Counted from the first letter of the stretch, positions 3,009-64,000 are shown. The stretch: DNA of 64,000 nt from a virus (IMGVR_UViG_3300006810_000046:1-64000); one strand, 5' to 3'. Notes: generated by a model not told the origin, from the sequence alone. Numbers and translations are program-made.

Positions 3009-4586
3009 ATGAATAGAAAAGAAATTAGAAGTGTAATTAGAAAAATAATCCAAGAGGTACAACAATCTCAAACAGATCAAAAAGATTGGATGAAGTCAGG
3101 GGATATTGATTTTGCTTTTTCTCAAGATCCATACGGAAAGTTATTAAAGTCAACAGGAATGAGTGTAGGATCTGTAACAAATACTAGCACAATTTGTATT
3201 ATTGACAAGCGAGAAACAGAGCAAAAAATTCGTGACAATTATCTACAAAAAGTTATGGGACCTTCTACTCCTTTACACGGCGGATTTTCCCATGCTCTTG
3301 TTCACGGTACTGATTTAAATAAGACTGTATATGAAAGAGTTTTATTAGGAATTAGAGGGAAAATTACAAATATGTGCTCAAAAAAAGGGTCTTATGATGC
3401 GTATAGAGTTGCTTTTGACCCAGAGTCAGGAAGACCTACAGGTGTTAAAAAGGTTGTTTCTAAAAAGCTAAAAAGTATTCCTGTGATTGAAATTATTAAT
3501 ATGCTTGATAGAATTAATGACGATATGATTTTAAACAATTTGGACACAATTAGTGATGCTGAACAAGAGCTTTATGATGATTTTAACACTCAGTTTTATT
3601 TACCTGAATATCTTGAGCCTGCTAGGGAGTTGTCAGCACCTGAGAATAGAGTGCTTTGTGATGACGATTATTTAACAAGCACTGATGTCATTTCAAAGGT
3701 CTTGTCAATAAGTATGAACAACAGTAGGTCAGGAATGATTCCTAGATTGAGAATTTACGATATGTTCTCTTATGAAAATGCAGAGGGTGAGACGCACGTT
3801 GCATATCCTGTCCAAACAAAACAAAACAAAATTAACTTTAAGACAACTGAAGATTCTCAATACACTAACCAGCCTGACCCAGCTGCTGCACTGGCTGCAA
3901 GCTGGACAAAAGACAGTGAACAGATAATATCAGAGATTGTTTCAAACTGGTCTAAAAACATGGGATCATTTAAATATTATATGAATACCGCCTTGCAAGG
4001 AATTGCTGCTTCTGGTAATTCAATATATTCTTATTACTTTCATAAAAGCAAACCTAAAATGATTTACTATTATACAGTTGACCTTAAAACAGGAAACTTT
4101 TTAATTGAGCATGAGTCTGAAAGTCCGTACGATCAGTCTGGTTTTTCAACATTCTACCTAAAAGCCTATAAGGTAAAAGACGGTTCTGGAAACTATGTTG
4201 ACAACGCTTATCATAATCCTTCGTCAAATACTTTTGATCAGCTTTTTGCAGGCCTTAGACTTTCACCAAATGTTAGAAAGGGTGATTCTCCTTTTACGAT
4301 TATTGACACTTTTTATGAAATTGGAAGAAGAGGAACAAGAGTTCCAAGTGATTTCGAATCTATTATGAGATCGGGTTCAAATAATCCAAGCCCAAATAGT
4401 TTTACTATTGGAGGGGAGCTTCCTTTGTTTAGCACAGTTGAAAACCTCGGAAAACATCCTGATTTTGTGGCTTTTACAAGTGACAAGTCTCAAATATTAA
4501 GTGAGTCAAAATCAGTTCAAAGATTAGACGATCGTATTTTAGAAACAGTCTTGCTTAAACTAAAAAGGCTTAAATCAGGCAGGTAA
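3009..4586 (+). CDS. Uncharacterised 525-residue protein with internal-head-protein-like leader
   Basis: I do not recognise the family. The first 18 residues (MNRKEIRSVIRKIIQEVQ) form a basic amphipathic helix ending I-Q-E, matching the leader shared by about ten proteins in this window. By analogy with T4 capsid-targeting sequences the leader may direct the protein into the prohead and then be cut off after Glu. The rest is a mixed alpha/beta, soluble-looking protein without membrane segments or an obvious catalytic motif. It follows the capsid terminator and a candidate late element, so it is probably expressed late. Its ATG is preceded by TTGGAGACTAA. Packaging is inference. Confidence 0.8.
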   Translation: MNRKEIRSVIRKIIQEVQQSQTDQKDWMKSGDIDFAFSQDPYGKLLKSTGMSVGSVTNTSTICIIDKRETEQKIRDNYLQKVMGPSTPLHGGFSHALVHGTDLNKTVYERVLLGIRGKITNMCSKKGSYDAYRVAFDPESGRPTGVKKVVSKKLKSIPVIEIINMLDRINDDMILNNLDTISDAEQELYDDFNTQFYLPEYLEPARELSAPENRVLCDDDYLTSTDVISKVLSISMNNSRSGMIPRLRIYDMFSYENAEGETHVAYPVQTKQNKINFKTTEDSQYTNQPDPAAALAASWTKDSEQIISEIVSNWSKNMGSFKYYMNTALQGIAASGNSIYSYYFHKSKPKMIYYYTVDLKTGNFLIEHESESPYDQSGFSTFYLKAYKVKDGSGNYVDNAYHNPSSNTFDQLFAGLRLSPNVRKGDSPFTIIDTFYEIGRRGTRVPSDFESIMRSGSNNPSPNSFTIGGELPLFSTVENLGKHPDFVAFTSDKSQILSESKSVQRLDDRILETVLLKLKRLKSGR

Positions 4587-4589
4587 TTT

Positions 4590-5204
4590 ATGAAGTATTT
4601 AACTCTTATATCTTCTTTGTTTTTACTCGTGGCACCTTGCCAGGCAGCTGCAGAAGACACTTCAAATATTGATGTATATATTATGAAGCCTCAAATTAAC
4701 AATTACACAACAGACGTCGAGAGCATTATAGGAAAAAAATCAGTTTATGCTTTTAATTCTGTGTATTGGAAAGACGCAAAAACAAAAAATGCAAGAGGCA
4801 CCTATGAACCCGTAACAATGAGCAAAGTTGTAAGGGTTTACGACAGAGACACTATTCAATATGCACACGATAATTGTAACTATGAGGTAGCTCCTAAAAA
4901 GTGTACTAATCAAAACGGAAACTATTTAGTTGAGACCATTATAACAATTGATGAGCACGAAACAGTTGTGCAAATGATACTTTATAATCCTGACATGACA
5001 GTTTTAAATGTATCAACAGTATCTGATCGTGGTCAAATTAACTACATCAGACAGCAAGAAATTCAAATGTCAATGACGTCTTCTAGAGTAGATGTAAAGA
5101 TACTTCCAGAGCAAAAGCCGCTTAAGTGGGTAATACCTGCTCATTTACTAGAGAGTTATGTTAGACAAGCTGCAAAAGGTTTGTGGCTGGGAATTAAAAT
5201 CTAA
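4590..5204 (+). CDS. Exported protein of unknown function
   Basis: The 204-residue product starts with a clear signal peptide: a Lys at residue 2, a hydrophobic core to about residue 16 and a likely cleavage after an Ala-rich stretch near residue 22. The mature part is beta-rich and has two Cys about ten residues apart (near residues 98 and 106), which could form a disulphide in the periplasm. It starts 3 bp after the upstream stop, so it is probably translated with that gene. Its 3' end overlaps the convergent minus-strand gene by 11 bp. I cannot assign a family; a role at the host envelope is inference from the signal peptide. Confidence 0.75.
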   Translation: MKYLTLISSLFLLVAPCQAAAEDTSNIDVYIMKPQINNYTTDVESIIGKKSVYAFNSVYWKDAKTKNARGTYEPVTMSKVVRVYDRDTIQYAHDNCNYEVAPKKCTNQNGNYLVETIITIDEHETVVQMILYNPDMTVLNVSTVSDRGQINYIRQQEIQMSMTSSRVDVKILPEQKPLKWVIPAHLLESYVRQAAKGLWLGIKI

Positions 5205-5538
5205 AATCTTTCCAAGCAAACCTTTTTCTTTTGTCCAAGTATTCCATATTATAGTGATTATTATAGGCTTCTCTTTCAAAAGGAATTGACATATAGGCAT
5301 CCTGGTTTGTCATTCCTTTAATCTTTCCTTTTAGCCAATAGTAAACATATAAAATATAGAAAAACACAACCAGCAGTTCTTTTTGCTGCTCTATGTGTAT
5401 TTTTTCGTGGTTTATTGTAGTGGGATTGTCGTAATCAGATCTTACAATAATAAAAGGAAATAGAGTAATTGCACCAACACTAATAAAGAGCGAGAGTGCT
5501 TTTGTAATCTTGTCTGATCTTATAATAATAGGTATCAT
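5194..5538 (-). CDS. Membrane protein with HExxH zinc-protease-like motif
   Basis: This 114-residue protein has a hydrophobic segment at about residues 12-32, an HEKIH motif near residue 44, a second hydrophobic segment (FFYILYVYYW) near residues 57-66 and an F-E-R-E-A-Y motif near residue 87. HExxH followed by a later Glu is the ligand pattern of gluzincin-type metallopeptidases, here in a very short membrane-embedded form. It is one of only two minus-strand genes in the window and its start overlaps the end of the other by 4 bp (ATGA), so the two form a small operon. The protease function is a motif-based guess; catalysis has not been shown for such short proteins as far as I know. Confidence 0.65.
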   Translation of the reverse strand: MIPIIIRSDKITKALSLFISVGAITLFPFIIVRSDYDNPTTINHEKIHIEQQKELLVVFFYILYVYYWLKGKIKGMTNQDAYMSIPFEREAYNNHYNMEYLDKRKRFAWKDFRF

Positions 5539-6164
5539 AAAACATCTGTTGGTGTATAACCTTTTGGCTTTGATACTCTACTTGGGATAAACTCAGTGTC
5601 TTCCAGTTCTTCATCTCTTTCTATTTCTGCTGTGTCTTCAAGTGAGTCTCTTTGGATTTCTGAAGTTCTCTCAAGCCCCGTGACTTCAAGCGAAAATGGA
5701 TCAAACTCGTCTTCAGTTGATTCTTCATCAAAATCGCCTCTGTAATTAGGTTCGTCTTGAACGAGGATGTCTGAAAGTTCCCAAGGCTCAATGTCATGAA
5801 CACCTCCATGAGACCCAACAACTGTTTCGTCGTCAAATCCTTTTGTTTGTGTTTTGTTTTCACTAGAGTCGTACATCCTATAGGGCTGTGTTTTTTCAAG
5901 GTGGTCAAGATCTTCGTCATCGCTGCTGCCTCTTAAGAAGTCTGCTGAGAAGCCGTTTACGATATCTTTAATTTCTTCTTTTGATTTTTCACCTGATTTG
6001 TAAGCGTTGTAGATTCTTTTTGCAAACTGGTATGTAATAATTCCTGCACTTGCAAGGTTCCATAGCGTTTGAAAGATTTCAGTCATTGCCATGAGATCTG
6101 CTTCTTGAAGCATCTTTTCTTTCTCAATTTGTTCAATAATAAGCTGTCTGATGACTTTTCTCAT
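5535..6164 (-). CDS. Leader-bearing acidic protein of unknown function
   Basis: The 209-residue product begins with MRKVIRQLIIEQIEKEKMLQEA, a basic amphipathic helix leading to L-Q-E-A, the same layout as the other leader proteins here. Next comes a hydrophobic helix (about residues 28-50), then a long acidic, apparently disordered region rich in E, D and T. No family is recognised. It is first in a two-gene minus-strand operon with the HExxH membrane protein. The leader suggests packaging into the head followed by cleavage after Glu; the hydrophobic helix suggests later membrane association. Both are inference. Confidence 0.75.
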   Translation of the reverse strand: MRKVIRQLIIEQIEKEKMLQEADLMAMTEIFQTLWNLASAGIITYQFAKRIYNAYKSGEKSKEEIKDIVNGFSADFLRGSSDDEDLDHLEKTQPYRMYDSSENKTQTKGFDDETVVGSHGGVHDIEPWELSDILVQDEPNYRGDFDEESTEDEFDPFSLEVTGLERTSEIQRDSLEDTAEIERDEELEDTEFIPSRVSKPKGYTPTDVL

Positions 6165-6203
6165 ATAATTCTCCCAGGATTTTATTATTTAATCAATATA
6201 TAT

Positions 6204-6211
6204 ATACTTAC
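6204..6211 (+). promoter_or_regulatory. Candidate late-promoter element ATACTTAC
   Basis: A variant (last base C) of the ATAYTTAT octamer, 39 bp before the 6243 gene and inside an alternating TA stretch. The divergent minus-strand operon starts just upstream, so this interval must hold promoters for both directions. Confidence 0.25.
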
Positions 6212-6242
6212 ATGTCATTAAAAATAAACTTATGGAGGAAAA

Positions 6243-6476
6243 ATGGCTAAAAAAGAAGAAGCTGCAGCGGCAGTAACAGAACATAAACACGCTGATCTTG
6301 AAAAAGAACTCGCAGCTCTTAAAAAAGAGTTGGAATCAGTTAAAAAAGAACTTGAATCAGTTAAAAAATCAAAATCAAGTGGTGGCGGAGCTGACCCTCG
6401 AGTTGATAAGTTAATTGAAGCTTTAAGAGACGAAAGTCCAAGATTTAAAAACTGCATTGAAAAAGCAAATCTTTAA
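6243..6476 (+). CDS. Small coiled-coil protein
   Basis: This 77-residue protein has an Ala/Glu/Lys-rich N-terminus, then a heptad-like coiled coil (about residues 15-45) in which the unit KKELESV occurs twice in tandem, a short Ser/Gly linker and a helical C-terminus. A GGAGG ribosome binding site precedes the ATG. Its place between the capsid and neck genes suggests a small structural or assembly role, but no family is recognised. Confidence 0.75.
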   Translation: MAKKEEAAAAVTEHKHADLEKELAALKKELESVKKELESVKKSKSSGGGADPRVDKLIEALRDESPRFKNCIEKANL

Positions 6477-6579
6477 ACCTATATACAATTAGGCCCAGCA
6501 CATAGCATAAAGGTGACCCCACCACCGTGTTGGAATCTTGTGGACAAGAAATCTCAAATATATTAAAATGGAGGAAATT

Positions 6580-6951
6580 ATGCCAAAAATTTCATTATTG
6601 CCAGGCTCAAAAGGCCTTGTACAAGAAACAGGAAGCGTTGTAGCAGGAGAAGCTGCAGCTGAAAGTGCGGTTCAAACTATTGGTGCATCCGGAACTATTC
6701 TTACTGCCGGCCGATTAATTGCACGAGTTGACGCAGGCGGTTCGGGCCGTACTGGTGTTATTATGCAAGACGGTACACAAGATGGTCAGATCTGTATCGT
6801 AGTTAATGTCGGTGGAGAAACTTTGACAATGGATTCTGTCGGTACATCTAACGTTGCTGCCGGAACCGGTGCAGTTATACCTGCTCTTTCTTCTGCACTG
6901 TTTGTTTATGATTCAACTATAGGTGCATGGCACTCGTTGCTTAATACCTAA
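6580..6951 (+). CDS. Small beta-rich protein, possible virion decoration protein
   Basis: I place the start at 6580 because a GGAGG motif lies 5-9 bp upstream; the frame is also open to an ATG at 6538 that has no ribosome binding site. The 123-residue product is rich in Gly, Ala, Val and Thr with alternating hydrophobic strands and no long helices, typical of small capsid decoration or fibre-base proteins. No family is recognised. Position between the capsid and neck genes supports a structural role. Confidence 0.75.
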   Translation: MPKISLLPGSKGLVQETGSVVAGEAAAESAVQTIGASGTILTAGRLIARVDAGGSGRTGVIMQDGTQDGQICIVVNVGGETLTMDSVGTSNVAAGTGAVIPALSSALFVYDSTIGAWHSLLNT

Positions 6952-6967
6952 TAGGTAATTCAATCCC

Positions 6968-6997
6968 TGTGTAAACAGTTTAAAACAGTAATATAAT
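6968..6997 (+). promoter_or_regulatory. Promoter of the GTGTAAAY-N15-TATAAT class
   Basis: TGTGTAAAC is followed after exactly 15 bases by TATAAT, 22 bp before the start of the 7020 protease gene. The same two boxes with the same spacing recur before at least seven other genes here. The downstream box equals a sigma70 -10 element; the upstream box sits where a -35 box would be. Confidence 0.75.
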
Positions 6998-7019
6998 AAA
7001 ATAAAAAAGGAGTTTTATT

Positions 7020-7499
7020 ATGTTACTGTTTTTTATTGCAAGCGCGTTTGGAGGAGAATGTAACTCTAAGCGTGCCTATCATTTAAATAGTGAATATAAC
7101 ATTTATGTATGTAATACCAATTTAAAATCTAGTACGTTAAAAGCAGTTGAATACTGGAGAAATATAGTTCCAGAAAGAATTAACATTCACACTAGCATTA
7201 ATTGCTCCTATGAAAAGAATTTAGGAAGCATATACGTTTTAAATGGTGAAGAAGAAGTAAAGAAAAAAGAAACAGACGATTTCTTACCTTATGCAGTTAC
7301 AGTTTCAACAAGAGACTTTTTTACAAAAGGTTTTCTTTCATCTGAGGTTCATGTAGGTGCAACAGCATATGACAAAGATTTGGACCTCATTGTCGCTCAT
7401 GAGATAGGTCATGGGTTGGGGTTTGACCATGTAAGTAAAAGCTGTTATGGCCATATTATGAACACAACACTTGGAGAGTCTGGTTACGACTTTTATTAA
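7020..7499 (+). CDS. Exported metzincin-type zinc metalloprotease
   Basis: The 159-residue product has a short hydrophobic N-terminus ending near Gly-Gly-Glu-Cys (residues 11-14), consistent with a signal peptide and possibly a lipid-anchored Cys. Residues 127-137 are HEIGHGLGFDH, a perfect metzincin zinc site HExxHxxGxxH with catalytic Glu128 and ligands His127, His131 and His137; I-M at about residues 147-148 is well placed as the Met-turn. The domain is close to the minimal length of matrixin-like catalytic domains and no propeptide is seen. It is transcribed from its own GTGTAAAY promoter, separate from the structural genes around it. The target (host envelope or peptidoglycan-linked protein) is unknown. 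Confidence 0.85.
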   Translation: MLLFFIASAFGGECNSKRAYHLNSEYNIYVCNTNLKSSTLKAVEYWRNIVPERINIHTSINCSYEKNLGSIYVLNGEEEVKKKETDDFLPYAVTVSTRDFFTKGFLSSEVHVGATAYDKDLDLIVAHEIGHGLGFDHVSKSCYGHIMNTTLGESGYDFY

Positions 7500-7527
7500 G
7501 GTGTTTTGAAAAAGGCACGCCGCAAGT

Positions 7528-7535
7528 ATATTTAT
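7528..7535 (+). promoter_or_regulatory. Candidate late-promoter element ATATTTAT
   Basis: Octamer 29 bp before the preferred start (7557) of the neck protein gene, the same distance as the one before the 3009 gene. Confidence 0.3.
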
Positions 7536-7556
7536 CAAATATGCAAGGAGTGTTTT

Positions 7557-8744
7557 ATGGGGAGATTTACTGACATGAGAGATGCTGGGCAGAACCCAAC
7601 ACCTTATGCGATTTTTGATAACGACGATGACTTTCCTGGAGAAGCTGATAATTTTGTAACATTTGCCAAAAGAAAACTAGGTGATGATGTCCTGTCAGTT
7701 GAGCTAACTAGAAAAATGTATTATGGAAACCTTGAAGAAGCAACACTTGAGTATAGCTCAATTATAAATCAATATCAGGCAAAGTCTCAGCTTCTCCAGT
7801 TCATGGGAATGCCGACTGGAAGCTATAATGCAGAGCAAAAACTTCCTAGAGAAAATCTTCAGTATCTTGCTCGATTTGCTGAGCCTTATTCGATGGAAGC
7901 TGGAATTGGAGGCTCCTATGACATGATGTCAGGATCAATTGACCTAGTTCAAGGTCAACAAGACTATGATATCAATACAGATCTTAAAGATTCTGACGGT
8001 AATGTTATATTTAATATTGGTCAAAATGCAGAAGAAGGTTTTAAAACCAAGCTAAAGATTAGTGAGGTTTTTCATTTTAGCCCACAGGCTGCCTATAGGT
8101 TTTTTGATACAACCTCAGCTATTAATTACTTAAATAATGAGTTTTCATTTGAGTCATTTACACCTGAGACTATTTTTTATGTTCTTCCTGTTTTTGAAGA
8201 CATTTTACGCGCAGGACAGCTAGATCTTTCAAATCGTGTAAGGAGGTCTAATTATTCCTATAAGATTATTGGTACAAAAATAAGAGTTTTTCCTACACCA
8301 ACTCAAGACAATCCTAGAAAGCTATTTTTACGTGTAATGTACAATCCAGACCCACTTAATCCTAGCTATCAAGATGATACCATACACGGAGTCTCAAATT
8401 TATCTAATATTCCATTTGGAAATATTTTATATAATAGAATTAATTCTATTGGAAGGCAGTGGATTCGACAATTTGCACTCGCTCTTTGTAAAGAACAGCT
8501 AGGTGAAATTAGGTCAAAGTTTTCCTCAGTTCCTGTTCCTGGTAGTGATGTTTCACTAAACGGATCCGACCTTTTAAGTCGAGGAAGAGAAGATAAAAAA
8601 GAGCTTGTAACACAATTAAAAGAGATGCTCGAAACAATGACTTATGACAAGCTAATTGAAGTAAGCTCTACCCGTGCTGAGATGATTCAAAAGCAGCTTA
8701 AATTTATTCCCATTCCAAATGGTGCATCAATAACAATAGGATAG
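7557..8744 (+). CDS. Neck / head-completion protein, gp13-like
   Basis: I choose ATG 7557 (395 residues) because AAGGAG lies just upstream; the frame is open to a TTG at 7506 without one. The N-terminal part has the acidic F-x-x-A-x-x-KLG-x-x-x-x-x-VELT pattern typical of gp13-type neck proteins, then a mixed-fold body. In T4-type phages gp13 and gp14 close the filled head and join it to the tail, and in marine relatives the order gp13, gp14, gp15, gp18, gp19 is common; the same order is seen here. The identification rests mostly on that synteny. Confidence 0.65.
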   Translation: MGRFTDMRDAGQNPTPYAIFDNDDDFPGEADNFVTFAKRKLGDDVLSVELTRKMYYGNLEEATLEYSSIINQYQAKSQLLQFMGMPTGSYNAEQKLPRENLQYLARFAEPYSMEAGIGGSYDMMSGSIDLVQGQQDYDINTDLKDSDGNVIFNIGQNAEEGFKTKLKISEVFHFSPQAAYRFFDTTSAINYLNNEFSFESFTPETIFYVLPVFEDILRAGQLDLSNRVRRSNYSYKIIGTKIRVFPTPTQDNPRKLFLRVMYNPDPLNPSYQDDTIHGVSNLSNIPFGNILYNRINSIGRQWIRQFALALCKEQLGEIRSKFSSVPVPGSDVSLNGSDLLSRGREDKKELVTQLKEMLETMTYDKLIEVSSTRAEMIQKQLKFIPIPNGASITIG

Positions 8745-39376: not shown

Positions 39377-41791
39377 ATGCCAGAAATACTTAGTGAAAGT
39401 ATTAAAAAGGCAATTAAAAAAGAGTATGTAAAAAGTAAAGTAAAATCTTTAATTGCTGAAAGTGTAATGCTTTTAATTGAAACAAAATTAAAAATAATCA
39501 GACAAAAGTTTCAAGAACTTCTTAACAACAATAAAATAACAGAAGATGAATATCGAAGTGTTTTTAAGTTTGACAAAAGCGGTGTGTTTAGAGGCCTGAA
39601 AGGTCCTTTTAAGCACCCTGTCTTTACTGAAATGGTTTATAAGACATTCATTAACGAAGAAAATCATACTTTTTCTGAAATTATTGACTCATTTCCAATG
39701 TTTCAACAAAAAATTATTGATGTGCATAGTAAAAAGATGCTAAAAAATCCAAGAATTCCAGGCACATCAGACGGCTTTTTCCCTATTGTCGATCTAATTG
39801 AAAGTGAAGATTTAACATTTTCAAAATATCTTGAATATCTTGATTTAATAAATAGAACTGACGCAAGATCTGTTGTTTTACAAGAGGTTCTTGACAAAGG
39901 GTTTAGAGGGGACGTTAAGAACTTTGAAGTTATTTATGATAAAGATGATTGGATTGTAGTTTATCCAAAAACATACCTTGGCTCAATAGCCACAGCTAGA
40001 ATGGGACCAGATAAAAACTACTATACACCACCTGATACAATTGGAGAGATGAGTTGGTGCACATCTATAGATAGTCCTGGAAACATGTTTTTAAACTACC
40101 ATAGAAAACTTAACATGCACATGTACTACTTTACCAAAAAAAGCGGGTTTAACAATCAAGATGCTAATAGAAAAGTCTGCATTAGTGTTAAAAAGGTTAA
40201 CAATAATACAAGCTTGGCACTTGGCTCTGCATCCGTCAATGGTAAAAACAAGCCATTTAAAACTGATGAGGATTGTCTTGCTGCCGTAGGAAAAGAAATG
40301 ATTAATTTGGTGATCAATGATGCACGTAAACCAAATAGGTTGGAAATATCCATAAGGGACTATTATGAATCAGTTTCAGCAAGGCAATATTCAGATCTAA
40401 GAAAAGCAGCGGGATCAGATGAAGTATATATTGAGCATTTTTCACAAGAAATACCTAGCTTTTTAAAATATAATAAAAACCCAGAAATAAAGAAGTTAAT
40501 ACTTGAAGACAATAATAAACATATTGTCATGTCTACATCTCTTACTATTCAAAACGGCTTTTTTAAACCTACGAGACAAGAGGCAAACGGTTTAATTGTA
40601 AAAACTCTTTTAAATGAAAGTCTAGAAGATTTAAGAGTCAAGTCTGTAGTCATTCTAAGAATTTTGCAAAAATGCGGAGATCTAATTGAAAACAAGGTTA
40701 TAAGTGCCATACTTGAAAGCAGTGTTAATAGACTGCACGTGTCATCATCAATATTTAAATATTGTAAAGAAATAGATAGCGAAATAATATCAAAACATCT
40801 TCTAGAAGCTTCCGCTAAAGATAGAGATCACCTGATTAACAAGCTCTTAGATAATAACTTTGCTTCTAATGAACATATTTTGCAAGTTTTAAAAATAGTA
40901 ACAGGATATTCTAGAGCAAGCCTTCTTAAAAGAAGAGGTGATCTTTCAAATGAAGTTTTAAAAATAATATGCTCTGAGCCTAGAAAACTTCCCTTTGGAG
41001 GATACTATGACCTTATTAATCACAAAGGTATGACAAAAGAGCTCTTATACATTTTCTGGAAGTCTTGGTACTATCGTCTTGATGCATTTGCTGGGAGAGG
41101 TCAAAAAATACCTGTAAGTGAGCTAGATAGTGTTTCATCAAACAAATTTATTGGTGCTATTTTGACATCAAAAAATGTAACAAGCAATATTATCGATGAG
41201 GTTCTTAAAGATAAAATAATATCATCTGACAGTGTTTACGAGTTTATTTCGCAAAACAAGTTTGTTGATCCCAAATATTTTAAAGAAGCACTTAGGTCAG
41301 TTTCTCACGTTGATAAAGCACAAAGAGTAAAAATGAACATTGCAGAAAATCCTTCTGCAAGTCAGGATCTATTACGCGATTTGTTAAATGAAATAAGCCT
41401 TTCATTTGAAAACTTTGATATTTTTCTTCGACTTGCAAGAAACAGAAACTCACCAAAAGATGTTTTAAAAACGCTTTTAAAACTTGACAATCCAAGCATA
41501 AAATTTACCATTGCTTCTAACCCTAGCGCGCCGCAAGAGTTTTTGATCGAAATAATTAAAGGAGAAGGAACAATAGGATCTTCACGTCAAAATGTTCTCT
41601 ACGCTCTTTCAAATCCGTCTTCACCTATTGAGTATTTACTTCATTACATAGGGAACGACGGTATTTACTATGAAAAAGCTGTTCAAAATATTTTAAAAAG
41701 AACAGGATTAACAGTTAAAGATAGACATGATTCTTTTCACGAGTTATGTGACAAACTTGGTTACGACTATGAAAAAATACTGAATCTTTAA
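39377..41791 (+). CDS. Giant leader-WCT-LRV repeat protein 1
   Basis: This 804-residue protein starts 1 bp after the amidase stop. Residues 1-35 form basic amphipathic helices with I-L-S-E-S and L-I-A-E-S, candidate prohead-protease sites. A conserved domain at about residues 185-260 contains WIVVYPKTYLGS, M-S-W-C-T-S and NMFLNYHRKLNMHMYY. The C-terminal half is helical; from about residue 640 it shows LRV/HEAT-like repeats such as AENPSASQDLLRDLL and ASNPSAPQEFLIEII. The gene at 42493 is a full-length paralogue. The biochemical role of the WCT domain is unknown to me; packaging in the head is inferred from the leader. Confidence 0.8.
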   Translation: MPEILSESIKKAIKKEYVKSKVKSLIAESVMLLIETKLKIIRQKFQELLNNNKITEDEYRSVFKFDKSGVFRGLKGPFKHPVFTEMVYKTFINEENHTFSEIIDSFPMFQQKIIDVHSKKMLKNPRIPGTSDGFFPIVDLIESEDLTFSKYLEYLDLINRTDARSVVLQEVLDKGFRGDVKNFEVIYDKDDWIVVYPKTYLGSIATARMGPDKNYYTPPDTIGEMSWCTSIDSPGNMFLNYHRKLNMHMYYFTKKSGFNNQDANRKVCISVKKVNNNTSLALGSASVNGKNKPFKTDEDCLAAVGKEMINLVINDARKPNRLEISIRDYYESVSARQYSDLRKAAGSDEVYIEHFSQEIPSFLKYNKNPEIKKLILEDNNKHIVMSTSLTIQNGFFKPTRQEANGLIVKTLLNESLEDLRVKSVVILRILQKCGDLIENKVISAILESSVNRLHVSSSIFKYCKEIDSEIISKHLLEASAKDRDHLINKLLDNNFASNEHILQVLKIVTGYSRASLLKRRGDLSNEVLKIICSEPRKLPFGGYYDLINHKGMTKELLYIFWKSWYYRLDAFAGRGQKIPVSELDSVSSNKFIGAILTSKNVTSNIIDEVLKDKIISSDSVYEFISQNKFVDPKYFKEALRSVSHVDKAQRVKMNIAENPSASQDLLRDLLNEISLSFENFDIFLRLARNRNSPKDVLKTLLKLDNPSIKFTIASNPSAPQEFLIEIIKGEGTIGSSRQNVLYALSNPSSPIEYLLHYIGNDGIYYEKAVQNILKRTGLTVKDRHDSFHELCDKLGYDYEKILNL

Positions 41792-42492: not shown

Positions 42493-45039
42493 ATGAAAAA
42501 AATAAGATATGAAATAAGAAAAATAATTAAAAAGACCCTTCTTAAAGAGGCACGATTGTTGCTAGAATCTAAAAAGAAGCTTTTTAAAAAGCTTGTAGAT
42601 CAAGGAAAGCTAAGCCTAGAAGACTTTGACTCCATGATTAATCCAAGAAACGGTGGTTTTTCACATCCATTTAACGACGATATTTTTAGATCTATGCTTT
42701 TTAATACACTTGAAAAAAGTGAAAATCATTCGTTTCAAGATATTGTAGCTTTTTATCCAATGATAAAGCAAAAAATAGCTGACCCATTTAGATCCGGAGC
42801 AGAATTAAATGTATCTGTTCCCGGGACAGCAAATGAATCAATAAATCTTGGAGAGCTAATTAAAAATAAGCTAGCTACATACGAAGACTTTAAATCCTAC
42901 GTAGATATTATCTCCTCTACATCTAATAGAACTGAAGTGCTACAAAAAGTCTTAGATGAAGGATTTGCTGGAGACACTCTTCATTTTGAAGTAATTCACG
43001 AAGATGACAACTGGATTGTTTGTTACCCAGATTCATATCAAGGTTCTATAGCACTTGCTAAAATGGGTCCTGACAAAGTTTTTTATGCTAGTAACGAGGC
43101 AAAAATTGGTAAAATGAGCTGGTGTACAAGTGTAGACGGAAATGGAAACATGTTTTTAAACTATCATAGAAGACTTAATATGCACATGTACTATTGTACA
43201 AGAAAAAATGGGTTTAATCCTAGGCATGGTTCGAGAAAGCTGTGCCTAAGCTTTGTAAAGTCAGGCAACCATATAGCTCTGTCTGATGATAATTATGCAA
43301 CTGTTGATGGAGACAATAAGTCTCTAAAAGAGCCAGACTGTATCAAGCTTCTAGGCACAGCTCTATTTGAAAAGATTGAAAAAGATGTTGGCAATCCAGA
43401 CAGACCTGAAATAGACATTGTTTCGTATTTTAGCTCTATAAACTTACATCAGTATAGAAACATGAGGGCAGCAGCAAATAACTCAGAAAACGATTTGGAA
43501 ATGTTTGCAAGTGACATTGAATCCTATCTTGAATACAATAAAAGCGAAGAAGTTAGAAGAGAGATAGCATCTGATCCGAGTGAAATAGTTCAAAAAGCGT
43601 TTGTTATGTCTACATATGCAAGTGCAGATGAAGTTGAAAGTGTTTTAATGTCAACTAATTCTGAAGAGGTTAAAATTAGCGCAATATATAGAGAGTCAAA
43701 TTTAAAACATAGAATCGGAACAAATTCCGCTGAAGGTATTTCCCTCAAAACCAAAATCAGGCTTGCAAAAGAAAACAATCCAAAAGTACTAAGAAGTCTT
43801 GCTATCCTGAAAGGAGAACCTGAAGAGCTATATTATGAGATCTATGAAGTATCAAAGCCTGACAATTTACATATTATGGAAATCCTGTGCACAAATAAAT
43901 CATGTCCAATCTCAATACTGCGTGAACTTTCTTATGCTAAAAAAGCTACAATACTAAGTAACATTGCAAGCAACCCGAAATCAACAAAAGAAATAATTTT
44001 AAATGTAATAAAAACTCTCACTGATAATTTTACTACTTTGCCTGACAGTGAATTTGTTCTTCGGAGTCTTTTTTCTAATCTTCACACTCCTGAAGAGTTT
44101 ATAAACTATCACATTAAAAATGGATCTCCTGATCTCAAATACACTATTAGCTATAGTGCTCGTAAATTGCCAAGAGAGACAATTATAACCTTGCTCAGAG
44201 ACACAGATGAAAATGTTAGATACGGAGCTGTAAATAGAAAGGATTTAGACACTGATGTTGTTGAAATGTTTTTAAATGATCCAGACAGCTTTATAAGATC
44301 AGGTCTAGCAGGACAGCCTAGCCTAAGTCAGTCAGCAATTCTAAAGCTTTCTCGAGATAGAATAAAGACTGTAAGATGTGCCATTGCTCAGAATCCAATA
44401 ATAGGACCTGATATACAGATGGTTTTGGCAAAAGACAAAACAAATTCAGTAAAGGCATGTCTTGCAAACAACACCTCAATAACTCTTGAGGCGGCAAAAG
44501 AAATAGCAAAGTCCCAAGATAAAAATATATTATCCAAAATTGCCATGAATGATAAACTGCCTGAAGAAGTAGCTGACGATCTTCTTTTATCACATCCTGG
44601 AATGGCAGAAATATTTAAAATGAACTTAATTATTAATCATACACCTAGTTCAAAAGCAATTGATTTATTTTATGAAAGTATCAAAAACAACTCAGCTTTG
44701 TTAAATAAATTTGTTGGCTTGATTTCTAGCTGTAGAAAAACACCTGAAAATGTTTTGCTCGACATTCTTGGTTCCGAAAACCTAAGTGAAGAAGTCAGGT
44801 CTCGTGTTGCTTTAAATGTGGATGCGTTGACTCCTGCTATATATGAGATTTTATTTTCCGACCCAGTAGAACAAGTTAGACTGTTTATTGCAAAGTGGAC
44901 AGACGGTCGACCTAGAAGCGTAATTGAGTATTTGAGAGATAATGACCCTAGTGCTATTGTAAGAGAAGAGGCAAGAAGATCTCTTGGAGAAAAATCTCTT
45001 GAAGATTCAGACAGAGACCTCGAGGATCCACCAGTATGA
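42493..45039 (+). CDS. Giant leader-WCT-LRV repeat protein 2
   Basis: I choose ATG 42493 (848 residues) over an in-frame GTG at 42487 because AAAGGTG fits it and the resulting MKKIRYEIRKIIKK start matches the next leader gene. Residues 1-22 are the leader ending L-L-K-E-A. The WCT domain at about residues 170-245 (WIVCYPDSYQGS, M-S-W-C-T-S, NMFLNYHRRLNMHMYY) matches paralogue 1 closely. From about residue 330 the protein is made of LRV/HEAT-like repeats (for example AQNPIIGPDIQMVLAKDK, ANNTSITLEAAKEIAK). Such repeats usually bind proteins or nucleic acid. It overlaps the next leader gene by 4 bp. Confidence 0.8.
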   Translation: MKKIRYEIRKIIKKTLLKEARLLLESKKKLFKKLVDQGKLSLEDFDSMINPRNGGFSHPFNDDIFRSMLFNTLEKSENHSFQDIVAFYPMIKQKIADPFRSGAELNVSVPGTANESINLGELIKNKLATYEDFKSYVDIISSTSNRTEVLQKVLDEGFAGDTLHFEVIHEDDNWIVCYPDSYQGSIALAKMGPDKVFYASNEAKIGKMSWCTSVDGNGNMFLNYHRRLNMHMYYCTRKNGFNPRHGSRKLCLSFVKSGNHIALSDDNYATVDGDNKSLKEPDCIKLLGTALFEKIEKDVGNPDRPEIDIVSYFSSINLHQYRNMRAAANNSENDLEMFASDIESYLEYNKSEEVRREIASDPSEIVQKAFVMSTYASADEVESVLMSTNSEEVKISAIYRESNLKHRIGTNSAEGISLKTKIRLAKENNPKVLRSLAILKGEPEELYYEIYEVSKPDNLHIMEILCTNKSCPISILRELSYAKKATILSNIASNPKSTKEIILNVIKTLTDNFTTLPDSEFVLRSLFSNLHTPEEFINYHIKNGSPDLKYTISYSARKLPRETIITLLRDTDENVRYGAVNRKDLDTDVVEMFLNDPDSFIRSGLAGQPSLSQSAILKLSRDRIKTVRCAIAQNPIIGPDIQMVLAKDKTNSVKACLANNTSITLEAAKEIAKSQDKNILSKIAMNDKLPEEVADDLLLSHPGMAEIFKMNLIINHTPSSKAIDLFYESIKNNSALLNKFVGLISSCRKTPENVLLDILGSENLSEEVRSRVALNVDALTPAIYEILFSDPVEQVRLFIAKWTDGRPRSVIEYLRDNDPSAIVREEARRSLGEKSLEDSDRDLEDPPV

Positions 45040-45260
45040 AAAAAATAAGACATGAAATAAGAAAGACTATTAAAGAAATTTTAAATCCTTATGAAAAGCA
45101 TAAAGATCAAAAGTACGAAAAGTCAAATAAGAAAAATACACATTTGGATAAGCCCACGTCCCACAGTTATATGAGCGGAGAAAACAAAGATTGGCTTGGA
45201 AAAGGACCTGTTAATAAAGTCATATATGACTATTTAAAATCAATGGGAATGATAGAATGA
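45036..45260 (+). CDS. Small leader-bearing protein (74 aa)
   Basis: It begins in ATGA overlap with giant protein 2 and has almost the same leader: MKKIRHEIRKTIKEIL, containing I-K-E. The remaining 58 residues are charged and polar with a short helical C-terminus (VIYDYLKSMGMIE). No family is recognised. Its close leader match to its upstream neighbour suggests leader duplication onto a new body. It overlaps the following gene by 4 bp, so the three form one translational unit. Confidence 0.75.
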   Translation: MKKIRHEIRKTIKEILNPYEKHKDQKYEKSNKKNTHLDKPTSHSYMSGENKDWLGKGPVNKVIYDYLKSMGMIE

Positions 45261-52030: not shown

Positions 52031-52870
52031 ATGAAAATAAGTAAAAACAGGCTTAGTAGTCTTGTAAGCCAGGTAATCAAAGAAGAGAGTGATGCCTTTG
52101 CTGTCCAGGGAGAAGCTCCTAATCTTCCGGAAGGGTTTAAAGACTTTAAATTTGATAGTGAAGCTCATTCTTATGTTAACTTTGTTCCTGGTCCTTTTAA
52201 AAAATATGACAAATATTTTTATGATCCTTATAAAAAAGGAAACGAATACATGTTTCAAGTTAAAGTCAATGGAACAGTAAAAAATATTTTACCTGGAAAA
52301 CCTGGCCATGATGTTTTAATGGGGAGAATTAAAAAAGGAAACGAATATCAAATTTCTCAAACCAAATCTGGACTTTCCAAGGCAGCTAAAGATGTCGCTA
52401 ATGCTATTGTTAGTTTTCTTGATTTAACCAACTATGGTGACGGAGAAGGAGAAATAAACGATGAATTAAAGGACTATCTTTTTCAAATAAACACAGAAAA
52501 AGGTATAGAAGCTATTAAAAACTCAAGTGATCCTTACTATAAGCACGCTGTCTTCATGCATCTAAGACAAGCGTGCCAAAAAAATAAAAATGTAAAACTA
52601 GCTGATTGTATTGATGCCGCAGCCAAGTACCTGGACCTCAAAGAGCCTAGCGAAGATGAGCTTTCAAAATCACAAAGTTATCAAAATGCTAAAAAGGCTG
52701 CTGGTGATTCTCCTTTGTTTAAAAATTCCATAGAACCTGTGCGCAGTACTTTTGGTGATCCCAAAGAGTCTGACTCTAAAGAGCCTAAAAATGAATCAAG
52801 CCAAATAAACGAAAAAAGAATAAGAGCAATAATTAGACACGAATTAATTAGAGCACAAAGAAAAAGATAA
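52031..52870 (+). CDS. Leader-bearing protein with leader-like helix at both ends
   Basis: ATG 52031 is chosen because AAGGAGGAG lies just upstream; a TTG at 52007 in frame has none. The 279-residue product begins MKISKNRLSSLVSQVIKEES, a leader-like helix with I-K-E. Its middle has a repeated Y-x-Y-D-P-Y-K-K-G-N-E-Y and K-K-G-N-E-Y segment and a Cys pair. The C-terminus (INEKRIRAIIRHELIRAQRKR) is again an amphipathic Arg-rich helix, a mirror of the N-terminal leaders of neighbours. No family is recognised. A late-type octamer upstream and a perfect terminator downstream make it a single-gene unit. Confidence 0.75.
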   Translation: MKISKNRLSSLVSQVIKEESDAFAVQGEAPNLPEGFKDFKFDSEAHSYVNFVPGPFKKYDKYFYDPYKKGNEYMFQVKVNGTVKNILPGKPGHDVLMGRIKKGNEYQISQTKSGLSKAAKDVANAIVSFLDLTNYGDGEGEINDELKDYLFQINTEKGIEAIKNSSDPYYKHAVFMHLRQACQKNKNVKLADCIDAAAKYLDLKEPSEDELSKSQSYQNAKKAAGDSPLFKNSIEPVRSTFGDPKESDSKEPKNESSQINEKRIRAIIRHELIRAQRKR

Positions 52871-54111: not shown

Positions 54112-54771
54112 ATGAAAAAAGAAACGCGGAAGATTGTTAAACTGATGTTAATTGAGAGAATAAAAAGAATATCAGCAACTAAAAATCCTAAAGACTCAAA
54201 GTATCCACTAACAATAACAGCAGATGTTTATCCTGTTTCAACAGATCAGCTTGCTGGATTTACTCCTGGATATAGAGATAGAAAGTTAAAAATGTTACAA
54301 GGTCATGCTAGTGATTTATCTCGTACTCTGACTTTTCAAGGAGACTATGCTAAGTCTGGAAACTCAGGTTTAAAAACGCTTAGGCTAAAAATAAGCGAAA
54401 AAGACTGGCCTGATATTTGGTATTTTCCAAATACTGAAATTGAAAGAAGACTATTTCTTCAAAACTTTAGAATTCAAAATCTAGACATAATATCTCCTTA
54501 TGATGAAGGAGGGGCAGAGTATGAGAAACTTTTCTCTGATCCTGATATAAACATATCCTTTGAGTTTGAAGAAAGTGAAGAAAGTGAAGAAAGTGAAGAA
54601 AGTGAAGAAAGTGAAGAAAGTGAAAAAAGCAAAAGAGCAGAAACTATTTCTAGTATCTTAAGCGGCTTTGACTTTATTATCGAGGATGCTAGAGAAAATA
54701 ATGAAATAGAATATTCAAACATGGTTCATGAAGCAATGTTGCTATTTATAAAAGAAGTTACAAAGAGGTAA
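54112..54771 (+). CDS. Leader-bearing protein with acidic E-E-S repeat
   Basis: I choose ATG 54112 because it gives MKKETRKIVKLMLIERIKRI, matching the other leaders, and GGA lies 8 bp upstream; ATG 54103 is an alternative with no ribosome binding site. The leader contains I-E-R rather than a clear x-E break. After a soluble region with PDIWYFPNTEIERR near residue 102, residues about 153-173 are seven E-E-S-type units, coded by a 9-bp tandem repeat. The total is 219 residues. No family is recognised. It starts a small operon with the 54774 gene. Confidence 0.7.
   Translation: MKKETRKIVKLMLIERIKRISATKNPKDSKYPLTITADVYPVSTDQLAGFTPGYRDRKLKMLQGHASDLSRTLTFQGDYAKSGNSGLKTLRLKISEKDWPDIWYFPNTEIERRLFLQNFRIQNLDIISPYDEGGAEYEKLFSDPDINISFEFEESEESEESEESEESEESEKSKRAETISSILSGFDFIIEDARENNEIEYSNMVHEAMLLFIKEVTKR
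54568..54630 (+). repeat. GAAGAAAGT nonamer repeat (E-E-S) inside a coding region
   Basis: Six perfect tandem copies of GAAGAAAGT and one degenerate copy (GAAAAAAGC) code for an acidic E-E-S run. The unit is a multiple of three, so copy-number change keeps the frame. Confidence 0.92.
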
Positions 54772-54773: not shown

Positions 54774-55079
54774 ATGAAAGTTAATAAAAGTATTCTTAAA
54801 AAAATGATAAAAGAGGGTCTTTATAATTCAAAGGAATATAAAAGGTTAAATGAAAAGTTTTATCCTAAAAACATTAGAAAGCTTAATAAAGGTGAAGATC
54901 CTACAAAGAAGACATCTCACGAAGCTGAAGGCTTTATCGAACCTACTATCTTTCCTGATGAGTTTGATTCTGACGTTTATCCATTTGCAGATCCGTCCCA
55001 TCCGGATCATGATACAATGAAAAGAGGTTTAAAGACGACCCGAGCGCAATGTCTGATTATAGGCAGCCTGCAAAACTAA
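54774..55079 (+). CDS. Leader-bearing protein, N-terminal frame of a probable -1 frameshift gene
   Basis: The 101-residue product begins MKVNKSILKKMIKEG, a leader-type helix with I-K-E, two bases after the previous stop. From about residue 88 it reads R-G-L-K-T-T-R-A-Q-C and soon stops, an unnatural end. The next ORF lies in the -1 frame and takes over smoothly at a TTTAAAG heptamer (55028-55034), giving R-G-L-K-D-D-P-S and a continuous protein of about 238 residues. This could be programmed frameshifting or a missing base. No family is recognised. Confidence 0.7.
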   Translation: MKVNKSILKKMIKEGLYNSKEYKRLNEKFYPKNIRKLNKGEDPTKKTSHEAEGFIEPTIFPDEFDSDVYPFADPSHPDHDTMKRGLKTTRAQCLIIGSLQN

Positions 55080-58317: not shown

Positions 58318-59663
58318 CAGCAATTACTGCAATTTATCGTCCCGGTCCGCTGGCAGCCAATGTACATAGAAAATATGTTAAGGCCAAAAACAATCCTCAA
58401 GACATTGTATACGATCATGATATTATTAGAGATATCCTTGAGGAGTCTTTTGGTTTCACAGTGTTTCAAGAGCAATTCATGTTATTGGCACAAAAACTAT
58501 CAGGCTTTGATAAAGGTGCTTCTGACAAAATGCGCAAGACACTTGTTAAAAAATCTCTTGATGCAAACGATGCAAAGGCAAAAGAACGTGTTGAACTTAG
58601 AAAGAAATTTGTAGGAGGCGCAATCAAGCTCTCGGGTCTAGCAGAAGATAAAGCAGTTAAACTTTATGAAACAATTGAGGCATTCTCTGCTTATGGTTTT
58701 AACAAATCTCACGCTGTTAGCTATGCAATTGACTCCTATTATTCAGCTTGGCTTCACACACATTATGAAAAAGAATGGCTAGCAACTTGTTTGCAAACAC
58801 TGAATGGATCCAATAAGTTTTCAAAGATTATATCTGAAATCAAGTCAATGGGATACAAGGTTCTTCCAGTAGATATTAATGAATCTTCTGATACTTGGGT
58901 ATATTCTGAAAAGAGAAAAGGTTTTGTTCCTCCTTTGACAGCTATTAAGGGTATTGGTTCTGCTGCAGTTGATGAAATCATTGAAAAGAGACCTTTTAAC
59001 TCTGTGTATGATTTGCTTTATGCAGGCGATAAATGGAAACCAAAGAAAATTAACAAAACCTGTCTAGACGCAATCTGCAAGGTCGAAGGATTAAACTCCT
59101 TGGTAGAATTTGAAAACGGTACCTTTAAGAATCACCGCCAGCTTCATGAAATTATCATTTCAAACTATGCTACATTAAGAAAGAATATTTACGGCATGAC
59201 AAAAACACAGCTTAAAAAACTTGAAGCTGATGGCATTGAACCCGAGAGATTTCTAGATTCGCAATTGGAAACTGTTTCAGGGCTCGAAGACTGGACACGT
59301 GTTGAAAAAATTCATAACTTTGTAAATCTTATGGAGAGCGTTGATAAATCAATTGTATTTCCCGAGGAGATTATGGAAAGAATTAATAATGCTCGCATTG
59401 ACTCTTTTGTCGAGGTGGAAAAAACCGGAAAAGGCATTGGTTGGTTTTGTATTCAAGAACTAATCAAAAAGACAACAAAGAACGGAAAGGTCTTTTATCG
59501 AGCCAAAGTTTGTGATTACGATATGAATACAGCCTGGGTAAGGATCTGGACAGAGTTTAAAGAAGAACCCTCTACTTATACAATGTGGCTAGCTGAACTA
59601 GGATACAGTGATTCGTGGGGCTATTCGACCTCTTCATACAAGATGCGTCAAATCAATGTGTAA
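58311..59663 (+). CDS. dnaE: DnaE, C-terminal part in the second frame
   Basis: From 58311 the -1 frame reads E-L-A-A-I-T-A-I-Y-R-P-G-P-L, the conserved DnaE continuation, then G-F-T-V-F-Q-E-Q-F, a K-M-R-K-T-L-V-K-K helix and the A-Y-G-F-N-K-S-H-A-V-S-Y motif near 58692, followed by the helix-hairpin-helix (AIKGIGSAAVDEI) and an OB-fold. It is 450 residues and ends normally. No ribosome binding site is present at the first in-frame ATG (58461), so it depends on the upstream frame. The last residues end just before the next GTGTAAAY promoter. Confidence 0.9.
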   Translation, partial: ELAAITAIYRPGPLAANVHRKYVKAKNNPQDIVYDHDIIRDILEESFGFTVFQEQFMLLAQKLSGFDKGASDKMRKTLVKKSLDANDAKAKERVELRKKFVGGAIKLSGLAEDKAVKLYETIEAFSAYGFNKSHAVSYAIDSYYSAWLHTHYEKEWLATCLQTLNGSNKFSKIISEIKSMGYKVLPVDINESSDTWVYSEKRKGFVPPLTAIKGIGSAAVDEIIEKRPFNSVYDLLYAGDKWKPKKINKTCLDAICKVEGLNSLVEFENGTFKNHRQLHEIIISNYATLRKNIYGMTKTQLKKLEADGIEPERFLDSQLETVSGLEDWTRVEKIHNFVNLMESVDKSIVFPEEIMERINNARIDSFVEVEKTGKGIGWFCIQELIKKTTKNGKVFYRAKVCDYDMNTAWVRIWTEFKEEPSTYTMWLAELGYSDSWGYSTSSYKMRQINV

Positions 59664-60664: not shown

Positions 60665-60673
60665 GGAGGAAAA

Positions 60674-62144: not shown

Positions 62145-62697
62145 ATACGATTTTATGCTAAAAAGAATACAAAAGCTGATTATTGATGTTCCAGACTTTC
62201 CAAAGTCTGGAATTCTATTTAAAGACATCTCGCCTATCTTCAGTGATCAAAGCGAGCTAAGAAACTTAATCACAGCGCAAGCACGTTTCATAAAAAACAA
62301 CGGGCGAGACTTTGATAAAATCGTGGCGATAGAATCACGAGGTTTTCTTTTAGGGGCACTTTTAGCTTACGAAACAGGTTTACCCCTAGTGCTTGCCAGA
62401 AAAGCAGGAAAGCTGCCTAGAGAAACTGTGTCAGCTGCTTACGGGCTAGAGTACGGAAGCGACAAAATTGAGATTCACACTAGTGACATTAAACAAGACG
62501 ATCACATCTTGATTGTTGACGATGTTTTGGCAACTGGTGGAACAGCGTCAGCAGTTGCTGATATTGTTGACTCGCTAGGCGGAAAAGTTGCAGGTTTTTG
62601 GTTTCTCATGGAAGTAAAAGGATTGGAAGGTCAAGATTCTTTGATTAATAACTGTCCATTTATTGATGCGAGTGATATAGAGGTAGTTTTAAGCTAA
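62137..62697 (+). CDS. apt: Adenine phosphoribosyltransferase
   Basis: I start at ATG 62137 (186 residues; the frame is open to 62092). It has the Apt layout: P-D-F-P-K-S-G-I-L-F-K-D-I-S-P, E-S-R-G-F-L-L-G-A, A-R-K-A-G-K-L-P and the PRPP-binding motif ILIVDDVLATGGT near residue 125. It converts adenine and PRPP to AMP. In the phage it fits salvage of bases released by the deoxyribosyltransferase-like enzyme or by host DNA breakdown. It overlaps the previous gene by 8 bp. Confidence 0.93.
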   Translation: MSEYDFMLKRIQKLIIDVPDFPKSGILFKDISPIFSDQSELRNLITAQARFIKNNGRDFDKIVAIESRGFLLGALLAYETGLPLVLARKAGKLPRETVSAAYGLEYGSDKIEIHTSDIKQDDHILIVDDVLATGGTASAVADIVDSLGGKVAGFWFLMEVKGLEGQDSLINNCPFIDASDIEVVLS

Positions 62698-62726
62698 GAC
62701 TGATATATGTTTAAAGCGGAGATTTA

Positions 62727-62768
62727 ATGAGAAATCATATTAGAAAACTAATATTAGAAGTCATTTAA
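62727..62768 (+). CDS. 13-residue orphan leader ORF
   Basis: ATG 62727 lies 6 bp after a GCGGAG ribosome binding site and codes for MRNHIRKLILEVI then TAA. The peptide matches the leader part (basic amphipathic helix with I-L-E) of the leader proteins but has no body. It may be a remnant whose body was lost, a free peptide, or the seed of new gene fusions. The next gene starts 80 bp later. Confidence 0.55.
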   Translation: MRNHIRKLILEVI

Positions 62769-62847
62769 AAATAATTGATGCAACTACATTTTAATTTATT
62801 TTTTGTCTTTGTTGATTAAAATATACAATATTAACAAGGAGATAAAA

Positions 62848-63849
62848 ATGAAAAGAGCATTAGTAACAGGTGGTTGTGGCTTTATTGGAAGCAACCTGAC
62901 AAAAAAACTAGTAAAACTAGGCTGGCAAGTAGATGTAGTAGACAATATGTCTAACGGTCACCTTGAGTTATTGGAAGGTTTAAAACTAAGAGTCTTGCCA
63001 AATGGCTCGTTTTTTACAGCTTATAAAATGCAGCCTGATTTAAAAAGAGAAAAAGACGAAGTCTTGGTAATTCAAGATGACTTTTCAGATGACAATGTAC
63101 TGAATGCAGTTTATCAGGGCTTGTATGATACAATATTTCACCAAGCAGCTATGCCGAGAGTTTCTTATTCTGTTGAATTTCCAGCAGAAACGACATACGA
63201 AAACATCTCTAAAACTATTAAGCTATTTGAAGCTGCATCAGAATCTGTCAATAGAATCGTTTGGGCATCCTCATCCTCAGTTTACGGAGGAGCTAAAAAC
63301 CTGCCTACAAAAGAAACAGAAAAGAAAGATCCAAAAAGCCCATATGCGTGGCAGAAATCAGCTATAGAGGATTTTTCTAAATTAGCCTATGATTTATATG
63401 GCCTTGACATTGTTTGTTTGCGATACTTTAACGTCTTTGGTCCAGGACAGTACGGCGACAGTCCTTATTCCACGGCAGTTTCTGCATGGTGTCATGCAAT
63501 TAAAAGTGGTGAAGAATGTAGATCAGACGGTGATGGCGAGCAAACACGCGACATGTGTTATATTGATAACGTTGTTAGCGCAAATATTTTGGCAGCTATG
63601 AGAAAAGAACCTTTTAAAGGTGCCTGCTATAATATCGCTTGTGGTAGAAAAGTTTCAAACAATGAAATACTTGAAGCTTTAAAAGATCGACTAGGCGATA
63701 AAGTAAAAGTTAGACATGCTCCCGAAAGAGCTGGAGATGTAAAGCACACATTAGCCAGTTATCAAAAAGCCCATACAGACTTTGGATACGAGCCACTTGT
63801 TCATTTTTGGGAAGGTTTAGAGAAAACACTTGTCTGGTGGAATATATAA
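62848..63849 (+). CDS. NAD-dependent sugar-nucleotide epimerase/dehydratase (SDR family)
   Basis: I choose ATG 62848 (333 residues, AAGGAG upstream; frame open to 62803). The Rossmann motif GGCGFIG is at residues 8-14, D-N-M-S-N-G near residue 34, and the catalytic Y-x3-K is Y-A-W-Q-K near residue 172. R-Y-F-N-V-F-G-P near 198 is typical of UDP-glucose 4-epimerase/dehydratase relatives. It probably alters a UDP- or dTDP-sugar for envelope glycans, or for modification of phage DNA or virions. Substrate cannot be told. The next gene starts 27 bp downstream. Confidence 0.9.
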   Translation: MKRALVTGGCGFIGSNLTKKLVKLGWQVDVVDNMSNGHLELLEGLKLRVLPNGSFFTAYKMQPDLKREKDEVLVIQDDFSDDNVLNAVYQGLYDTIFHQAAMPRVSYSVEFPAETTYENISKTIKLFEAASESVNRIVWASSSSVYGGAKNLPTKETEKKDPKSPYAWQKSAIEDFSKLAYDLYGLDIVCLRYFNVFGPGQYGDSPYSTAVSAWCHAIKSGEECRSDGDGEQTRDMCYIDNVVSANILAAMRKEPFKGACYNIACGRKVSNNEILEALKDRLGDKVKVRHAPERAGDVKHTLASYQKAHTDFGYEPLVHFWEGLEKTLVWWNI

Positions 63850-63876
63850 TATAGTACAATAATGTTGTGAGGAAAA

Positions 63877-64000
63877 ATGAACAAAATAATTCAGCAGCTT
63901 ATTAGAGAGCTTTTAAAAGAATCTGATGATGAAAAGAAAAAGAAGACCCAGACCCCTAAGGGATATCTTTCCATAAGAAACGTTTCAAGTCCTGTCAGCA
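63877..64000 (+). CDS. Leader-bearing protein, cut by the window end
   Basis: ATG 63877 follows a TGAGG ribosome binding site. The visible 41 residues start MNKIIQQLIRELLKES, an amphipathic helix ending L-K-E-S, the clearest match to the (I/L)-x-E break of the leader family, followed by a Lys-rich stretch and a new domain start. It continues past the window. Confidence 0.65.
   Translation, partial: MNKIIQQLIRELLKESDDEKKKKTQTPKGYLSIRNVSSPVS

Follow-up and report, generated by a model that had tools for sequence, protein, structure and literature searches.

A repeated N-terminal leader in a T4-like phage fragment

The DNA stretch IMGVR_UViG_3300006810_000046:1-64000 (64,000 nucleotides, hereafter the window), which covers nearly all of an IMG/VR record of 64,830 bases, is a fragment of a T4-like phage in which nine genes and one miniature open reading frame (ORF) begin with a similar basic, amphipathic leader. 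Its gene order runs from an acidic scaffold gene through gp23 and a head-tail adaptor to tail and replication genes. The gp22-like scaffold gene (1..990, plus strand) is assigned by its position before gp23, its composition and an RWxxLAG tail as in gp22 of relatives; the product contains several LxE↓S sites (↓, predicted cut) and ends in DRWARLAGLK, and Pfam and PHROG searches with it gave no match. Its 5' end is lost at the contig edge, with no stop upstream of 115. The following gene (1020..2903, plus strand) encodes the major capsid protein gp23 (PF07068, 9.1e-78), which places the window in the gp23 lineage of T4-like phages. A protease site, VLRE↓A, is predicted after residue 60 of this gp23, where relatives conserve (V/L)L(R/K)E; 65 residues are removed from T4 gp23 (PMC9958956). 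No close DNA relative of window 1-8000 was found in the phage collection, and the annotated gp23 proteins nearest to that of the window come from Microcystis phage Mel-JY01 (35% identity, with 95% of the protein covered) and Flavobacterium phage immuto (47%, with 63% covered).

The original prediction placed the leader at ten sites, on proteins with unrelated bodies. All ten were located, and nine start real ORFs; the tenth, at 62727, turns out to be an ORF of 13 codons rather than a protein gene. A leader profile of 11 positions, trained on N-termini of other phages only, was applied to the 69 window genes, and its top nine are exactly the nine genes among the ten sites. Specifically, on the plus strand, MNRKEIRSVIRKIIQE↓ (3009..3056, 13.5 bits) opens a 525-residue protein (3009-4586), MPEILSESIKKAIKKEYVKSKVKSLIAE↓ (39377..39460, 11.5 bits) an 804-residue protein, MKKIRYEIRKIIKKTLLKE↓ (42493..42549, 10.5 bits) an 848-residue protein, and MKKIRHEIRKTIKE (45036..45077, 11.5 bits), a near copy of the 42493 leader, a 74-residue protein. 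Further along the same strand lie MKISKNRLSSLVSQVIKE↓ of a 279-residue protein (52031..52084, 7.2 bits, rank 8/69), MKKETRKIVKLMLIE↓ of a 219-residue protein (54112..54156, 4.2 bits, rank 9/69, the weakest member), MKVNKSILKKMIKE↓ of a 101-residue protein (54774..54815, 16.8 bits, the highest among the nine genes) and MNKIIQQLIRELLKE↓ of a 187-residue protein that extends beyond the window to 64440 (63877..63921, 15.2 bits). On the minus strand, MRKVIRQLIIEQIEKEKMLQE↓ (6102..6164, 10.9 bits) opens a 209-residue protein (5535-6164). The starts at 52031, 54112 and 42493 lie inside slightly longer mechanical ORFs. The mini-ORF MRNHIRKLILEVI, terminated by a stop codon (62727..62768, plus strand, 17.5 bits), has a ribosome-binding site and no body; of the 1,369 mini-ORFs with such a site across 11 genomes, no other reaches 12 bits. 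It may be what remains of a lost gene, or it may yield a free peptide.

The bodies behind the leaders are indeed unrelated, except that the 39377 and 42493 proteins are paralogues (32% identical). These two orphans (39377-41791 and 42493-45039) share a conserved SWCTS...NMFLNYH...MHMYY domain and a HEAT-like solenoid; the 42493 protein is modelled, at low confidence, as an alpha/beta domain followed by the solenoid (HEAT, 2.5e-5). Structure prediction of the pair was of low confidence (pLDDT 58). PHROG and Pfam searches assigned no function to the window bodies except the HEAT-like match, no homologue of the 42493 body was found in annotated phages, and a close-pattern search of IMG/VR returned no homologue of the 42493 or 3009 bodies.

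The leader is enriched at N-termini and joined to many unrelated bodies

Matches to the profile exceed chance. Seven window genes reach at least 10 bits, against an expectation of 0 from internal segments and 2 from shuffled N-termini, and no internal segment of a window protein reaches 8 bits. Compared with other N-termini, the window leaders have a higher amphipathic moment (0.65 versus 0.46) and charge (+3.1 versus +0.8). Among 1,330 proteins of more than 110 residues in 11 genomes, 104 N-termini score at least 12 bits versus 2.9 expected; recognised false positives are gp17 terminase, thioredoxin and gp21 itself.

In 80 gp23 relatives together with the window, the core motif h-R/K-x-h-h-x-E occurs in 99 of 1,054 N-termini, versus 15 in shuffled and 14 in internal sequence. 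At a threshold of 10 bits, a 273-kb phage (G001) carries the leader on 50 of its 348 genes (2.1 expected), followed by G002 with 25/358 (1.2), G007 with 18/200 (0.4) and G004 with 17/182 (0.6); G003 has just two such genes. Once the first 28 residues are removed, 152 leader proteins from the 11 genomes fall into 103 body clusters, so that an N-terminal extension of 10-30 residues recurs on otherwise unrelated proteins. The sole near-invariant column in an alignment of 94 leader proteins is the leader Glu (consensus MxxxxxxLRxIIxE). An exact 15-codon form of the leader was counted 192 times, in 102 viral stretches, and belongs to 165 proteins that form 125 clusters. A second hhxE follows in 107 of these 165 proteins versus 12 of 105 internal controls, at residue 22 in 85 cases.

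The leader is confined to particular phages. It is not enriched in T4, S-PM2, Syn9 or HTVC008M, and phage N-termini therefore do not share it in general. Across 84,980 prokaryote genomes the exact 15-codon form appears in just seven stretches, all contigs of metagenome-assembled genomes (MAGs), and two of four checked genomes with the leader encode the gp21 protease. Two contigs filed in bacterial MAGs, NHDW01000006.1 (305,838 bases) and PBIO01000025.1 (101,404 bases), carry repeated phage leaders; they are probably misbinned phage contigs, because the same assemblies encode gp21. The cultured Flavobacterium phage immuto (MW353175.1) has a different repeated leader, MENFDLKKFLVENKLTxNSxLLxE, on several proteins (1803, 103806, 117631 and 118632), and judging from it, leaders seem to be lineage-specific. 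In Flavobacterium phage immuto_2-6A, the genes at 81525, 102294 and 102880 and the genes beginning MENFDLKKFLVEN have a predicted cut Glu; no virion proteomics for immuto was found. Literature searches returned no description of the leader studied here, an absence that is no proof of novelty.

The DNA of two window leaders indicates how the element spreads. The first 30 nucleotides at 42493 and 45036 are 93% identical, with 9 of 10 synonymous codons equal, compared with 23% identity upstream, and this difference argues for recent copying of the leader. In arrays of relatives, on the other hand, the peptide is conserved and synonymous codons differ in 34-46% of comparisons, so selection acts on the peptide. 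With one leader shared by more than 100 clusters of unrelated bodies, and copying visible at the DNA level, the proposal of a modular tag gains firm support; taken together, the leader is almost certainly a real, modular, phage-specific element.

Leader genes are linked to head genes, the gp21 protease and the scaffold

Of 36 relatives whose sequence extends far enough, 33 have a leader gene within 4.5 kb upstream of gp23, a region that holds gp21, small core-like proteins and gp22. The gp21 protease (PF03420) is encoded by 14 of 16 long relatives. In T4, gp21 cuts after (I/L)-x-E, and the leader ends in that motif: the Glu is near-invariant in the 94 aligned proteins, Leu, Ile or Val stands two residues before it in 32 of 33 phage superoxide dismutases (SODs, described below), and second sites follow in the 107 proteins mentioned above. 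As a control, a genome-wide search of T4 for a hydrophobic-hydrophobic-x-E site recovers the internal proteins (IPs) IPI and IPIII (MKTYQEFIAE↓A), along with N-termini of the gp21-gp22-gp24 region.

A further link is the scaffold C-terminus RWxxLAG(I/L), common to gp22 of relatives and the window protein (960-987). Eight other proteins of at least 275 residues end in RWxxLAG or a closely similar motif, and the motif occurs 36 times versus 6.5 in shuffled proteins; it is probably a second head-address or scaffold-contact motif. RWxxLAG is also seen near the N-termini of some proteins (G002 12599, G008 10419).

Leader proteins include superoxide dismutases and other enzymes

One G001 leader protein is an Fe/Mn SOD (PF02777, 1.4e-20), whose ligand positions H, H, D and H align with those of solved SODs; the alignment with solved SODs begins only at about residue 31 of the query. 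A scan of IMG/VR yielded 33 phage SODs (viral contigs L169-L201), each with a predicted removable leader. In all 33 a helix-like stretch and a spacer, the latter differing in length, precede the enzyme, and all 33 have xE↓(A/S/N) at the SOD start. This is the pattern expected of a removable propeptide, with variation in the leader and a constant site at the edge of the domain. Of nine additional SOD contigs at least 140 kb long, eight encode gp21. The cultured jumbo phage PA5oct has a distant SOD that starts MNDSIKKYISIAE↓A and is annotated with electrospray ionization tandem mass spectrometry (ESI-MS/MS); this detection is no proof of packaging, because the mass spectrometry list includes ribonucleotide reductase.

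Additional leader cargo comprises a zeta-toxin-like kinase (4.5e-12), HAD-like, leucine-rich and PAP2-domain proteins. One G002 leader-protein family conserves YRG, S-W and ExE in the order found in ADP-ribosyltransferases such as T4 Alt; it has no Pfam match and no significant match in the fold search (best E 0.3), and we tentatively regard it as a candidate ADP-ribosyltransferase family. Arrays of paralogous leader proteins in G002 (L161 357-7190 and L163 7930-13862) include many members with leucine-rich repeats and some with possible ADP-ribosyltransferase motifs.

Similar helices occur at some C-termini. The 52031 protein has the leader at its start and a leader-like helix at its end, INE↓KRIRAIIRHELIRAQRKR before the stop (52814..52867, plus strand, 11.0 bits in a C-terminal scan), and the 3009 protein may end in a C-terminal propeptide, ILSE↓SKSVQRLDDRILETVLLKLKRLKSGR (4506..4583, plus strand), as judged from its sequence. 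The HAD-like protein G006 125976 has no N-terminal leader and ends in TNE↓SSLLHLIRSLIREDLRDF. By count, C-terminal copies are not significant (3 versus 2.9 at 12 bits or more; 11 versus 4.5 at 10 bits); the two best, G006 125976 and G002 198606, compare with 0.5 expected at 18 bits. We treat these possible C-terminal copies as a lead.

Other features of the window

Two large neighbouring ORFs (10668-13799 and 13826-17278), alike in their N-terminal parts, resemble two tail sheath proteins. DNA polymerase III alpha (56104-59663) is split into two ORFs, 56104-58317 and 58461-59663, and its finger domain resumes in another frame near 58300; the split appears to be a frameshift, either real or made by assembly.

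A capsid-targeting propeptide as the best explanation

The sequences themselves display a shared module, unrelated cargo, a head-gene context, gp21 in relatives and (L/I)xE at the SOD boundary. We consider the leader, at a probability of about 0.85, to be a T4-style capsid-targeting propeptide, peculiar to this T4-like lineage and used at a far larger scale. Core binding, cleavage, retention and ejection are what we infer from these features. In such a mechanism, the basic amphipathic helix (often MKITKRQLRRIIKEE in relatives) would bind the growing prohead core, with the gp21-type site (I/L)-x-E↓ directly after it or past a short spacer. Late in infection, leader-bearing proteins would be drawn into the core and the protease would remove the leader; the cargo would be retained with the DNA and would, at least in part, enter the next host. 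Delivery into the host is likely, and the nature of the cargo (SOD, a zeta-toxin-like kinase, a possible ADP-ribosyltransferase family) makes injected effectors plausible. The earlier claim that these are packaged head proteins is backed by indirect, converging evidence from the gp21-gp22 block, gp21 in relatives, the SOD sites and the scaffold-tail motif.

Several points weigh against this explanation. The window begins inside gp22, so the phage's own gp21 falls outside view. Neither the 54112 nor the 45036 leader has a clean site with a small residue after it. Cargo as large as 804 and 848 residues would need unfolding to exit through the tail. Proteins of PA5oct detected by mass spectrometry are weakly and not significantly enriched in such sites (18/93 versus 17/163, P=0.058). 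The capsid-targeting sequence (CTS) of T4, MKTYQEFIAE, is dissimilar, and T4 IPs score less than 8 bits with the leader profile; because a CTS is defined by function, this mismatch argues against a recent shared ancestry of the leader and leaves the mechanism unaffected.

The position of the most conserved leader genes in the gp21-gp22 block, together with the small size of many leader proteins (70-140 residues), would also suit a leader that marks prohead-core or scaffold subunits consumed by the protease rather than delivered, as T4 gp22, gp67 and gp68 are digested (PMC9958956). We regard this as improbable: complete enzymes are found among the bodies (Fe/Mn SOD, zeta-toxin-like kinase, HAD-like and PAP2 domains), the SOD has one conserved site exactly at the domain start, and bodies this varied and lineage-specific do not suit a core.

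Basic amphipathic helices can bind membranes, and the leader has no known binding partner, so an address unconnected with the head (for instance the inner membrane of the host, a replication compartment or a protein complex) deserves mention; it seems very unlikely given that gp21-type sites, the block of head-core genes and the scaffold-tail motif accompany the leader, and that marine cyanophages and a pelagiphage lack such enrichment. The near-identical 42493 and 45036 leader DNA might instead point to an effect of the nucleic acid itself, such as enhanced translation or a recombination hot spot at gene starts. The different codons for the same amino acids in relatives' arrays, and the in-frame motif at a few C-termini, leave this idea with almost no credibility.

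Relation to known systems and implications

T4 established the capsid-targeting principle, and its IPs are injected (PMC9026906, PMC9958956). Like the CTS of IPI, IPII and IPIII, the leader is a short N-terminal propeptide on unrelated proteins that ends in (I/L)xE, with sites such as LLKE↓A corresponding in kind to T4 FIAE↓A; unlike it, the leader is a basic I/L/R helix and occurs on up to about 50 genes per genome rather than a few. T4 Alt is a packaged ADP-ribosyltransferase cut at both ends (PMC5694885), which recalls the YRG, S-W and ExE motifs of the G002 proteins and the possible tags at both ends of the 52031 and 3009 proteins, although the fold search did not confirm the G002 family and no Alt homologue was recognised in the window. 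In phiKZ and SPN3US, a prohead protease trims propeptides of many head proteins, and genome-packed proteins are ejected (PMC5694885); their propeptides often exceed 100 residues with the site A/S/G-x-E, whereas the phages here are gp23/gp21 T4-like. The N-terminal 30 residues of P1 DarB suffice to send a reporter into the capsid (PMC9024508), but this signal is described for a single protein, and P1 has no T4-type scaffold. The new elements here are the lineage-specific leader sequence, the scale, the enzymatic cargo and the second scaffold-like tag.

On balance, we see about even odds for a broader proposal: large environmental T4-like phages would use a two-ended address code, an N-terminal helix, sometimes repeated at the C-terminus, and an RWxxLAG tag, to load dozens of interchangeable effectors (SOD, zeta-toxin-like kinase, possibly ADP-ribosyltransferase families) into the head for delivery with the DNA. 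New cargo would be recruited by copying the leader onto further genes, with 62727 as a by-product or donor. Large phage genomes are dominated by genes of unknown function, and a readable tag would sort head-bound proteins from those staying in the cell, so that proteins which are probably delivered, about 50 in one phage, could be listed from sequence alone and put to the test. The leaders may also offer new targeting sequences for loading proteins into phage heads. The capsid-targeting explanation implies that some phages would enter the cell with a ready protein kit including superoxide dismutase, and this would make early counter-defence testable.

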